Shown here piece by piece: positions 16,889 to 22,300 of a stretch of 64,000 nucleotides of DNA. Source of the DNA: Cylindrotheca closterium. Taxonomy: Eukaryota; Bacillariophyta; Bacillariophyceae; Bacillariales; Bacillariaceae. How positions within the stretch are numbered: position 1 is the first letter of the stretch; every line of letters starts with the position of its first letter. Made by a program: the position numbers and the translations under genes. Location of the stretch: NCBI GenBank assembly GCA_933822405.4, contig CAKOGP040001759.1, positions 108,449-172,448 of the forward strand, given 5' to 3'. The notes below the pieces were generated by a model that searched no databases, had not been told where the DNA came from, and saw only the letters and a program-made list of their open reading frames with translations.

Positions 16889-18097
16889 ATGACAAGAACA
16901 TCAGAGCAATCATCGACGACACCGCCAACCGAGCACTCCTCCATGGTGGTTGGCTCTGACGGCACCGTGCTAAAAAGAGATTGCGATGATGAAGGGGAAG
17001 TACTCCATGAAAATGTTTCCAATGTCCAAAAGCTCTTTCGGCGAATGTCATCCTCCAATGTCAGTGGAGATTTGGAACGGGGAGTTCCACGCCAACGAAA
17101 ATTGCACAAGATGCTGGCTTCCCGAGGACATTCGCAACCACAGACGGTCGAGAGACAAGAATCCATGAAGAAGATTGTTCAACAAGTAACCTTGAATTAT
17201 TCTCCAACCAAATCTGGCAAAGACACCTTGGAGGCTGTCTACAAGACTGGAGAATACAAAGCTGCTCTACCGCTTAACATATTGGTAGTCCAATCCTTCA
17301 TGGCGGGGATTTACATTGCCATGGCGGGTCATTTGTATCTGGCCGTGGGTGGAGGTGCTCTGGGTGCTGCCATGTTTCCCACCGGTCTGATTGCCGTCAT
17401 TTTGACCAGTGCGGAACTCTTCACGGGAGATTCCTTGGTCTTTGTGGCCAGCGTCTTGGGCAAACGCGTCGCCTTTTCCAAGTTGCTCCGAAATTGGACC
17501 GTCAGTTGGATCATGAACTTTGCCGGATGTCTCTTTTGGGCCTATCTTCTGGCCTATGCATCTGATTCGCTCGAGAGTCTGGATAAGATTGACTTTGCCA
17601 TTGCCGTGGCACTCAAAAAGACCAAACCATCCTGGGGCTGCATCTTGTTGAAAGGCATTGCCGCCAACTTTATGGTCTGTGTCGGTGTCTGGCAAGCTGC
17701 CTGTGCCGAAGAAGTGGCTGGAAAGATTCTGTGCCTATGGTTCCCCATCACTGCCTTTGTATTGATGGGATTTGATCACTGCATCGCCAATCAATTTTTG
17801 ATTCCACTTGGTATGATGCTGGGAGCTGATATTTCCATCAAAAAGTTGCTCTTGGAGGCCCTCTTGCCAGCAACCTTGGGCAACATTGTGGGTGGGGGCT
17901 TGCTCGTCGGAGGCATCTATTGGTATGTCTTTGATTCCAAGATGAAGAACAAACTGCGACTGCCAGTAGTTCGAAAACAAGAATCATCCCAGAGTAATGG
18001 CAAGCCAGCAGCATCAAAAGATACCAATTCTACGGATACGATGGACCGCAATCATAAACCATCAACGCATTTGGAGGAAGAGGAACAAGACATTTGA
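16889..18097 (+). CDS. formate/nitrite transporter family (FNT) protein
   Basis: This 402-residue membrane protein is a FocA/NirC-family channel or transporter for small monovalent anions such as nitrite or formate. After a hydrophilic, Ser-rich N-terminus (about 1-120) come about six hydrophobic helices. They include the FNT-typical stretches LVVQSFMAGIYIAMAGHLYL, GLIAVILTSAELFTGD, LLRNWTVSWIMNFAG, GIAANFMVCVGVW and FDHCIANQFLIP; the last two carry the family-conserved Asn and His residues. The C-terminal 50 residues are hydrophilic. NAR1-type plastid nitrite transporters belong here, but no plastid presequence is visible, so the membrane is unknown. Anion specificity cannot be read from sequence. 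Confidence 0.92.
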   Translation: MTRTSEQSSTTPPTEHSSMVVGSDGTVLKRDCDDEGEVLHENVSNVQKLFRRMSSSNVSGDLERGVPRQRKLHKMLASRGHSQPQTVERQESMKKIVQQVTLNYSPTKSGKDTLEAVYKTGEYKAALPLNILVVQSFMAGIYIAMAGHLYLAVGGGALGAAMFPTGLIAVILTSAELFTGDSLVFVASVLGKRVAFSKLLRNWTVSWIMNFAGCLFWAYLLAYASDSLESLDKIDFAIAVALKKTKPSWGCILLKGIAANFMVCVGVWQAACAEEVAGKILCLWFPITAFVLMGFDHCIANQFLIPLGMMLGADISIKKLLLEALLPATLGNIVGGGLLVGGIYWYVFDSKMKNKLRLPVVRKQESSQSNGKPAASKDTNSTDTMDRNHKPSTHLEEEEQDI

Positions 18098-18245
18098 TAG
18101 AAATCCTCTATCTGTCGTCTGAGCGTCGTCCGATACGTTGACCAAGATTTCTCCGTCGATCGAAATCTCGATAAAAAAACACCGTAAATAATAACATAAT
18201 ATCTTGGTATTATATATACATTGACAATATCATACTGTATCATCC

Positions 18246-18944
18246 ATGAAGCTCTTGAAAGCTTTGTTTCTTGGATTAGCCTGCCTCACTGGTGCCTCGG
18301 CTATCAAGGTTGGTGATAAGGTTCCCAAGAATGTGGACCTTCACTTCGGGTTCCCTCCCGAGAAGATTAACTTTGACGAGCGTGTGGCTGGGAAGAAAGT
18401 AATCCTGGTGGGTCTTCCAGGGGCCTTTACCCCTACTTGATCTAGTCGCCAGGTACCTGGTTACCTGGCAAAAGAGGACGCATTGAAAAAGCTTGGAGTT
18501 GACGAAATTATTATCTATTGCGTCAACGATGGAGCTGTGATGGATGCTTGGGCTTCAGACCAAGGAGTTGCCAAGACTTCTATCATTAAGCTCATGGGTG
18601 ATCCATATGGCGAGCTTACCGAAAAGCTTGATATGGAATTGACTCATGCTGGTCCAAAGTCAGTGGGACTTATCAATCGTTGCAAGCGATTCGCCTTGTT
18701 CATTGAGGATGGAAAGGTCAAGATTGTCAAGGTTGCCGAAGCTGAAGATGTGAGTCTTATCATATCACTATTTTGGAAACTATGATGAGTCGATCATATT
18801 AATACGAGGTCGTGTGTGTGGTTGATTCTGACAATTTTTCTTTTCGTTTACTTTCAGGATCCAGCGGGTGATGAACGCCCTGATGTCACTCTCGCCGAAA
18901 GCATGATTGATGCCATCTCCGCGCTTGGAAAGGATGAACTCTAA
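18246..18944 (+). CDS. selenocysteine peroxiredoxin (Prx5/type II), ER-type, KDEL end
   Basis: Exons are 18246-18749 and 18858-18944, with a 108-bp GTGAGT...CAG intron in phase 0. The product has 196 residues if TGA at 18438-18440 is read as selenocysteine 65. That codon falls exactly at the peroxidatic cysteine of the family motif PGAFTPT-C-S, and the same frame continues at once with SSRQVPGYL and the rest of a Prx5 domain (IIYCVNDGAVMDAW, NRCKRFALFIEDG). The N-terminus is a signal peptide (MKLLKALFLGLACLTGASA) and the C-terminus is GKDEL, an ER-retention signal. Predicted role: thiol or selenol reduction of peroxides in the secretory pathway. A Cys-to-stop null allele or a sequencing error is the alternative, but the exact position and the intact downstream frame favour Sec. 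Confidence 0.88.
18438..18440 (+). other. in-frame TGA at the peroxidatic Cys position (probable Sec codon)
   Basis: TGA lies between ACT (Thr of GAFTPT) and TCT (Ser), where Prx5 proteins have TGT or TGC. Reading on gives 103 more codons of conserved peroxiredoxin before the intron. Confidence 0.85.
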
Positions 18945-19045
18945 GAAGAGTTTGATCAATCATCTGAGTGGCCTCCCATGGCTTTCTTGACTCTTGACTT
19001 TGACTGATTCCCATGTATAATGTTTCTATTAGCAATGTATCGGGA

Positions 19046-19085
19046 ATGACGCTCTCGCAACCGATTTTGTGTTGGACGAGCTGAC
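19046..19085 (+). promoter_or_regulatory. weak SECIS candidate
   Basis: About 100 bp after the stop, ATGA (19046) is followed nine bases later by AA (19059-19060) and then TGAC (19082-19085). That is the order of the SECIS quartet, apical AA and 3' GA. GCTC/GAGC can pair just inside the quartet, but the helix is short. I could not find a better fold by eye in 18945-19386, and the true element may be elsewhere in that UTR. Confidence 0.2.
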
Positions 19086-19386
19086 AAAAAAGCAGATTTT
19101 GAGAATCATTTTTTCTGTGATGACTGGTCGAATCAATTTTGCGTCCTTTTGATTAGTCACCACATTAAAGGTTCATTCTGCTCGTATCCATTGCTCCAGG
19201 GCATGTACCCGGGAATCAGTCAAAGCGTGTTGGTTAATGCCGTACTGACGCTGCCGCTATTTTAGTGTCACGACAAATTGTAATTAGTAAATCAAAATTC
19301 TTTCTTTGTTTTTTGAAACTATTACGGATTAATTGAGTCGAGTGTGATGTCATGGTTCAATTTATTTGGCTGTTAGGCTAGTCTCA

Positions 19387-22300
19387 TCATGAACCCCATC
19401 CAAAACTGAGAACACTGCTAGTCACACTCTCCATTGTGCTGCTACCGCTATCCAAGGCGGTGGTCGCCTTGCTGAGTTCCTCGGGCGTGAGACACAACAC
19501 AGTTCCAATCACGGGAAGCAAGGCCTTCTTTTCGGCTACTGTTGTTGCATTGACAAAACTCAACGTCACATTCTTCAAGTATTCCATATTTACTTGCTCT
19601 TCTTGAGGCGTGAATTTCTCGCGCTGATTTTGTCGCTTCAGCTTGGCGAGGGCCTCGTTCATCCTGGTTTGCATGTCTTTCATGTTCTCCATGGCATGTT
19701 GCTTATCAGCTTCCGAGTCACCCAAAAGGTTTGCTAAGCGAGTGATTTCATTTCTTGCTTGAGTCAACTCGGCCTGTTTCTCCATTGCATAGAACAATGG
19801 CATACCGCCGCCGCCGCCATCTTCGCTCGACGGAGCATTTGCTGGAGCGCTGCCAGCCGGAGCCCCAGATTTTATGGCCTCGGCTTCTTCCACTGTTGCT
19901 CTGAGAGTTTCCTTCAGTTCCTTGATTGCCTTATTTGCATCGTCGAGTTCTTGTCTCAGCATATTGATGGTTGCTTCTGCTTCCGAATTCAAAGCGACTT
20001 CTCGTGCTTGCTCCGATCCATCCTTCTTTTCCTCGGCGTCATTTTTCTTATTCTTCATTCGAAGGGCCATGAGATGCAATTCATCCTTCAGGCGATGGAT
20101 TTCGCGGTTCAATCTTTCAGTCTCCTCAAAGAGTTCACTGCTGCGGTTTTCTGACTCGGCAAGTGCCGCATTGACATCTTCCGTTGTTTTCTGTGCGGCT
20201 TCCAGACGGCCAGCAATACTCTGGAGTTCACATGTCTGTTTGGCGTTTGTTTCGCTGAGTTCTTCTGCATCTTTTTTCGCTTGCTCCAATTCTCCAGTGA
20301 CTTTCTCCAGTGCTTCCTTCACTTGGTTGTATTGTGCAACTTCCTTTTCCATCTTGGAAACAAACATTTTTGCCTTCGCCTCAGCCTCTTTTCCATTTTG
20401 CTCGGCCACGAGGGCTCTCTGCATGGAAGTATCGGCTGTTGATCGAGCGGCCCGAGCTTCCATCTCAGCTTCTTCCCTCGCCTGCACCGCGGAAGCCATT
20501 CGAGCATTGGCGAGCGACAAGGACTGCTGCGCCTTTTTTTTGTAGGTTGACAAGGCTTCGTCGCCCTTCTCCACTGCTTTGTCGATGGCCTGTTGGGCTT
20601 CCTTCAATTCAGCTTCCTTTTCAGCGACTTGACTCCTCAACGTATGGAGTTCTAGCTGCTTCTCTTTCGTATTCTGGTTCATGTCGAGGGATTCACCTTG
20701 CATTTGGGTAATCTGATCTTGAAGGCTTGTGTTGTTCGCCTTCAGAACCTCGACTTCTGAACTAAGAGTTCGGCATTCTGCGCGACGCTCTTTCAGTTCA
20801 CCGGCAATGACTTTCGTTCTCTCCTTCAGTGTGTTATATTCCTCCTTTGAAGCTTCAAGAGCTGCGTTGGCATCTTGGACTTGTTTCTGTGCGAATGTCA
20901 AATTGTGAAAAAGGTCTACGTCAGTCCTGCAATGTCCGGGTTAACTGCCCAATACGATCCGAGACTTACCTCCATAGCTCTAACTTTCGCCACGTTTCCT
21001 TGTGAGCTATCTTCAGCCTTTACCATTTGCTTTTCCAAATCTCGTAGCTGCTTCAGATGTTGTTGCTGCATGCGCTTGAATTCCTTCTCCTTATCTGACA
21101 ACAATTCTTGGGTACCACTCAATTCCCTTGTCATCGCATCCACTTTCAGTTTGTGTCCTGATTTTACTCGTTTTTCATCCGCTTGTGCCTGTCGTAGACT
21201 TTGCTGGGTTTGGGAAAGCTCCTGCTTGAGTGCTTGCAATTCCTGCTCATGCCGCCGTTGTGAAGCTTGTTTCTCGGCCAAATGATTCTCCTCCAATCGT
21301 TTTAGCTGCTCCGAAAATTGATTCAATACATGATCAGGGATGGCAGCCTGCTGTGCTGGTACCGACGAAGGCGCTGGTTCTTGGCGCATAGTTGAAGGTG
21401 GCCTGTCCATATTATTACTTGATTCCTCCGCATTCTCCAGTTTGGTATCGTCGTGATCCATTCTGATGGGTTGGGGAAAATCAGTACTCGTTGCTGCCGA
21501 AGGTGGGGCCTCCTTCATTACTTCTTCCTGTGTGCCCTCAGGGTCCGTAGCCTCGTCTTCTGTATCATCCGTATCTACATTTCCAATGTCATCCCAACCA
21601 TCTTCTCCGTCGGAACCACCCTCGTCAGCCTCTTCATCGTCACCATCCATTCCCTCATCAGCAGTCTTTTCATCACTGCTAGCATCCTTCACTGTCCCTT
21701 CAAATTGCTTTTGAATTGCATCAGGGGCAGGTGCAGCCTGTGCCATTCCCTTTTCTCGTTTCTTTTGTTCCTGACGTTCTTTCCATGCCCTTTCTAGTGC
21801 TTCTTGATCATCCTCTTGGTCTTCACCATCGTCGTCATCTTCTTCATCATTGTCATCGTCGTCATCAGCAGGGGCATTTTCTTCCTCCTCTTCTCCTGCA
21901 GATTCTTCCGCGGGCGCTGGTGTTTCTTTTGTTTTCGTTGGTTCCTCCACGATAGTAGTCGGAGCTGCTCGGGATTGTGCAGATGCAGGTGCAGTAGCAG
22001 CTTGTGGTGCTTTTGCCTTGACTGCAAACTCTTTGTCACCTTCCTGCTGAAGCGAGTCCATGTTGAAAAAGCCACCTGCCGAGGCGAAGTTGGGGGATGT
22101 AAAATTGGAAGACTTTTCGGATTGGACATTTTCCTGATTTTAAAAATAAGCGATTAGGGTGAGATGAATGTGGTTATAGAAGCGCAGAAGCAAAGGAAGA
22201 CAACGTCAGCATCAAATTCATTGACGCCCTTTGCCTATTTAAAAAATCCTCTTTAATGAACAGCACATGTTCCAAGTATCACAATCATCTCAAAAGAACC

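Follow-up and report, generated by a model that had tools for sequence, protein, structure and literature searches.

In a 64-kb stretch of DNA from the marine diatom Cylindrotheca closterium (the window, i.e., the whole of this stretch), we have identified a + strand gene, PrxA, that very probably encodes a Prx5-like selenoperoxiredoxin, probably of the endoplasmic reticulum (ER), in which the UGA at codon 65 would be recoded as selenocysteine (Sec) by the eukaryotic route; judged from sequence, the probability of this reading is roughly 0.93. Selenocysteine had been proposed at this codon by an earlier, sequence-only reading, and the proposal is now supported by the same TGA in the paralogues, by Cys/Sec exchange among homologues and by the genes of the Sec machinery in the genome.

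The gene and its active-site codon

The features of the gene and its 3' flank are as follows, where P0007 denotes the public C. closterium protein from the same gene.

18246..18749, + strand: exon 1, with the Redoxin domain (translation, domain and structure matches)
18246..18302, + strand: signal-peptide-like start, MKLLKALFLGLACLTGASA (judged by eye)
18384..18452, + strand: 69-nt GT..AG stretch, probably excised in P0007 (presumed boundaries)
18438..18440, + strand: TGA in frame as codon 65, aligned to the peroxidatic Cys; putative selenocysteine
18519..18521, + strand: codon of Cys92 (Y-C-VND), which may pair with Sec65 (strong by counts; not significant once kinship is considered)
18750..18857, + strand: GT-AG intron, 108 nt (same junction in the C-terminal part of P0007)
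18858..18944, + strand: exon 2, 87 nt, stop TAA
18930..18941, + strand: C-terminal KDEL, ER-retention-like (sequence; relatives compared)
19046..19085, + strand: SECIS candidate (ATGAC, GCTC...GAGC stem, TGAC)

With the TGA read as a residue and the intron at 18750-18857 spliced, the PrxA protein has 196 residues. It is only with this intron that the gene end at 18944 given in the sequence-only reading holds. A formate/nitrite transporter gene (PF01226, 1.4e-36) directly precedes PrxA on the same strand, its 3' part lying at 17600-18097 of the window.

The active-site motif of Prx5 / type-II peroxiredoxins is P-x-x-x-T-x-x-C, and PrxA has the Redoxin domain and the corresponding PGAFTPT, followed by TGA. 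On the + strand, MKLLKALFLGLACLTGASAIKVGDKVPKNVDLHFGFPPEKINFDERVAGKKVILVGLPGAFTPT is succeeded by the TGA (18438-18440) and SSRQVPGYL, and the protein around this codon reads ILVGLPGAFTPT*SSRQVPGYL with the frame unshifted. When the frame is read through the TGA, the Redoxin family PF08534 is matched at 7.4e-23, and in phmmer alignments residue 65 is paired with the Cys of the poplar type-II peroxiredoxin 1tp9 and of human PRDX5 (1oc3), while another chain, 2wfc, has Ser at this position. Translation and alignment thus agree with the earlier description of a TGA in frame at the peroxidatic Cys, with the remainder of a Prx5 domain behind it. The Thr preceding the active site is, furthermore, present in all of the 111 readable homologues among those listed.

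In the public model, this catalytic centre is absent: P0007 has 173 residues and lacks the 23 residues AGKKVILVGLPGAFTPTUSSRQV, which constitute the active site. If the 69 nt at 18384-18452 were a real intron, the TGA would be excised and a shorter protein made, as P0007 itself has it, and the stretch does begin with GT and end with AG; four other eukaryotic models (P0011, P0047, P0064, and P0118) omit the active site as well. These five models disagree, however, on the boundaries of the omission, and excision would remove GLPGAFTPT, the most characteristic part of the fold, which is kept in homologues. The length of 69 nt is also divisible by three, and the stretch keeps an open frame throughout. 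We hence consider such an intron very unlikely and retain the selenoprotein reading.

Both ends of PrxA suggest its location, namely, a signal-peptide-like start and a KDEL end, and the protein is probably in the ER. Among listed relatives, an ending of the form [KHRSN]DEL is found in 23 of 45 members of the PrxA clade (27 by a looser rule) and in nine of the 75 others (12 by the looser rule), the latter including P0007 and P0011, which belong with PrxA.

Conservation of the TGA and exchange of Sec and Cys

PF08534 is matched at eight places in the C. closterium genome, three of which have the GAFTPT motif, and in all three the next codon is TGA. Besides PrxA, these are PrxB (GAFTPTUSTKQ; C468, L006) and PrxC (GAFTPTUSSRQ; C58, L004), with the TGA at the same codon as in PrxA. 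By eye, PrxB starts in the manner of a mitochondrial presequence, and an ASAF motif like that of diatom plastid targeting can be made out in PrxC.

Homologues were collected as the best 120 of 3654, of 2025, and of 2189 proteins, giving 178 distinct listed proteins, in which the residue at the site is Trp in 126, Cys in 30, and another residue or a gap in 22. The Trp is best explained as a TGA that gene callers translated under a code with TGA as Trp. Among the listed proteins, the nearest homologue, P0001 (90% identical), has W at the site, and P0014 of C. fusiformis (72% identical) has Cys. Given that both Prx5-type paralogues share the TGA and that most listed homologues print W or Cys, the earlier argument that a nonsense codon would hardly fall on the catalytic position by chance is borne out.

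A pseudogene or a sequencing error, in which a Cys codon has been mutated or misread, would require only one base between TGT/TGC and TGA, and the public annotators did handle the PrxA frame as broken in P0007. The frame is, however, otherwise intact across two exons, the two paralogues have the same TGA, and W stands at the site in P0001; a base error in particular is very unlikely because three loci and many independent contigs agree. We regard this explanation as extremely improbable. It is just as hard to believe that a change of code or plain read-through puts Trp or a near-cognate amino acid at the TGA. Trp is indeed what the homologue records print, but 30 listed homologues have Cys, not Trp, by any caller; moreover, internal TGA in this genome occurs where known selenoprotein families have their catalytic redox centre, and of 30 parsed genes one (L034) ends in TGA as an ordinary stop. 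Sec therefore stays the preferred reading of codon 65.

The exchange of Cys and Sec in this column, for which the sequence-only reading had suggested looking, is present and repeated. On a tree of 159 rows, from which the 22 of 178 homologues without a readable site were dropped, 14 Sec/Cys changes are counted; a first tree of 114 rows (nine of 120 homologues dropped likewise) gave 11, and for the Cys label at least seven of these are required by branches with good support. No relative was found among the viral contigs searched, and seven bacterial loci matched in the prokaryote genomes were set aside. A metagenomic PrxB-like homologue of 287 residues, P0054, is listed with an added glutaredoxin domain (PF00462), which may hint at an electron donor.

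A second cysteine of PrxA, Cys92, may accompany Sec. Of the 129 aligned rows with Sec or W at the active site, 115 carry Cys at residue 92, as against 11 of the 30 rows with Cys there (Fisher 8e-9, kinship ignored), leaving as exceptions 14 Sec/W rows without and 11 Cys rows with this residue. When nine independent pairs on supported branches are compared, an average of 3.3 are for the association, 0.2 against, and 5.5 without difference (median p 0.25), so that once kinship is allowed for, the association of C92 with Sec is at most suggestive. In the phmmer alignment, Cys92, a candidate for the resolving Cys of an atypical 2-Cys enzyme, is two residues past the Cys of poplar ILCISVND, which we take to be the plant resolving Cys; if it is on a strand, Cys92 would face the same side. 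It is conceivable, albeit rather doubtful, that the diatom Prx5 selenoproteins form a distinct "Sec plus shifted Cys" type, in which Cys92 replaces the Ser of S-V-N-D, makes a selenenylsulfide with Sec65, and tends to vanish when Sec turns to Cys, with ER (KDEL), mitochondrial, and plastid isoforms in one cell.

Sec machinery and a SECIS candidate

Both tRNA-Sec and eEFSec, which the sequence-only reading had proposed to look for, are found in the genome. Five tRNA-Sec matches with the anticodon TCA score 72.4-74.3 bits, above the cut-off; C168 has four of them in a tandem array, and the fifth is on C124. The copies (L009 1079-1888, from C168, and L013) differ by a compensated acceptor pair, C-G vs T-A, and immediately upstream is a match to RNase MRP (51.8 bits, cut-off 50). 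A gene for eEFSec (L041) matches human eEFSec at 3.5e-120 over residues 33-612, and TIGR00475 alone gave no match in the genome at its cut-off. The genome also has SepSecS on C1, SPS2 with a TGA of its own on C201, and an SBP2-like L7Ae-domain protein on C270 (4.2e-6 to human SBP2 over 78 residues). The second part of SepSecS (L018) has an in-frame TGA within the matched stretch (NDASUTIHKD), perhaps in an intron.

Including the three peroxiredoxins, at least 16 genes in the genome have a TGA at a redox site. The other 13, under family names that we in part presume, are five GPX, two SelM, one SPS2, two MsrA, one SelT, and two SelU-like genes, among them a SelU-like gene with RRPGUVYC (L028) and an MsrA with ACGUFWG (L039). 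In the latter (G000:C112:1109414-1109776), GUFW at the active site is in an upstream exon that the match does not cover, so the family search missed it.

The 3' UTR of PrxA, where the selenocysteine reading calls for a SECIS, contains a SECIS-like hairpin, and we propose 19046-19085 as a candidate. It is 101 nt past the stop, with the form ATGAC-GCTC...GAGC-TGAC, and similar hairpins follow PrxB (ATGAC-GTTG...CAAC-TGAC, 95 nt past the stop) and PrxC (ATGAC-GCTCCTG...TAGGGGC-TGAG, 83 nt). We described this form by a rule, namely, [AG]ATGA[CT], directly followed by at least four pairs, 28-70 nt to the end of the matching arm, and N-GA, all within 500 nt of the stop, and applied it, beyond PrxA, to 14 controls and 15 Sec genes; L028 and L039, initially placed among the Cys controls, turned out to be Sec genes and are counted as such. 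PrxA and 10 of the 15 other Sec genes match vs none of the 14 controls (Fisher p 2e-4), although we had composed the rule after inspecting the Prx hairpins and the 3' UTRs of eight further genes. The matching genes are PrxB, GPX on C564 and C26, SelM on C201 and C435, SPS2, MsrA on C435, SelT, SelU on C540, and the SelU-like L028; the pattern is absent from PrxC, GPX on C90, C105, and C560, and MsrA on C112 (L039). PrxC is missed owing to a C before ATGA and is matched if any base is allowed there. Of the five Sec genes whose UTRs had not been read beforehand, four match (SelM on C435, SelT, SelU on C540, and L028) and L039 does not. Upon dinucleotide shuffling, the pattern fires in 7.6% on average over 14 UTRs, the corresponding rate for the PrxA UTR being 4.3% over 500 nt and 6.1% over 450 nt. 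The three TGA-bearing GPX genes without the pattern (L019, L022, and L024, on C90, C105, and C560) share a short-stem ATGAC...TGAA after the stop, which we did not accept as a SECIS.

Taken by itself, the PrxA hairpin makes a weak fold, with a z of -1.67 and equally good folding in 15 of 200 shuffles, and in a context of 96 nt another fold prevails (z +0.52). By the primary SECIS rule in the available text of PMC2375036 (NTGA, 10-13 nt, AA or CC, 15-39 nt, GA; energy threshold -12.6), the AA of the hairpin is one nt too near, a CC with spacings of 11 and 20 nt would satisfy the rule but is paired in the predicted fold, and the energy of -10.5 kcal/mol is short of the threshold. The Rfam SECIS model had no match in the window at 18000-20500, at 12 loci, or genome-wide, the last search having a prokaryotic control set and no eukaryotic yardstick; this negative is uninformative, because the GPX, SelM, and SPS2 genes were unmatched as well. 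Two earlier hairpin scripts gave no convincing form for PrxA, and ten SECIS segments aligned too poorly in MAFFT to build a covariance model from them.

If the candidate is functional, the SECIS in the 3' UTR would bind SBP2, which would bring eEFSec with Sec-tRNA to the UGA at codon 65. Following the biochemistry of Prx5, Sec65 in place of the peroxidatic thiol would then reduce peroxide and become a selenenic acid, which a thiol may resolve, perhaps that of the chain's own Cys92, before the enzyme is reduced by a cellular donor.

Comparison with known selenoperoxiredoxins

The statement in the sequence-only reading that Sec-containing peroxiredoxins are known in algae agrees with the available text of two papers. 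In Thalassiosira pseudonana, 16 selenoprotein genes including two peroxiredoxins were described (Lobanov 2007, PMC2375036), and PRX is among the most widely distributed algal Sec proteins, diatoms having 20 to 44 selenoprotein genes (Jiang 2020, PMC7539508). Sec peroxiredoxins of diatoms are thus already published, and PrxA very probably adds a further one; the gene itself is undescribed in the titles and abstract openings retrieved on Cylindrotheca selenoproteins, diatom Sec peroxiredoxins, and Prx5 selenocysteine, the main text of PMC7539508 does not contain the word "Cylindrotheca", and the available part of PMC5139114 has nothing further on Prx5. Because P0007 is without the catalytic centre and 126 of the 178 listed homologues print Trp, counts of diatom enzymes that defend against peroxide by means of selenium are likely too low.

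PrxA would share with these published proteins the occurrence of Sec in peroxiredoxins of diatoms and other algae, whereas the Prx subtype, an ER form, and a partner Cys are not given in the accounts as available (PMC2375036 and PMC7539508). The algal selenoproteins AhpC_a and AhpC_b likewise have Sec in a thioredoxin fold and belong to the peroxiredoxin group in its wider sense, but their motifs are TGGUT and UxxC (PMC7539508, available text), in contrast to TPTUS in PrxA, whose best domain is Redoxin PF08534. With the Cys-type Prx5/type-II enzymes, human PRDX5 and poplar 1tp9, PrxA has the fold and the active-site motif in common (E 2e-23 and 1.6e-24), while differing in that a Sec codon replaces the peroxidatic Cys and a Cys replaces the Ser before V-N-D. 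Less expected in the PrxA family are the signal-peptide-like start together with KDEL, the repeated Sec/Cys exchange, and the second cysteine, C92; with changes between Sec and Cys among close relatives and an apparent ER form, the family is a naturally occurring setting in which to ask what advantage Sec gives a peroxiredoxin over Cys.
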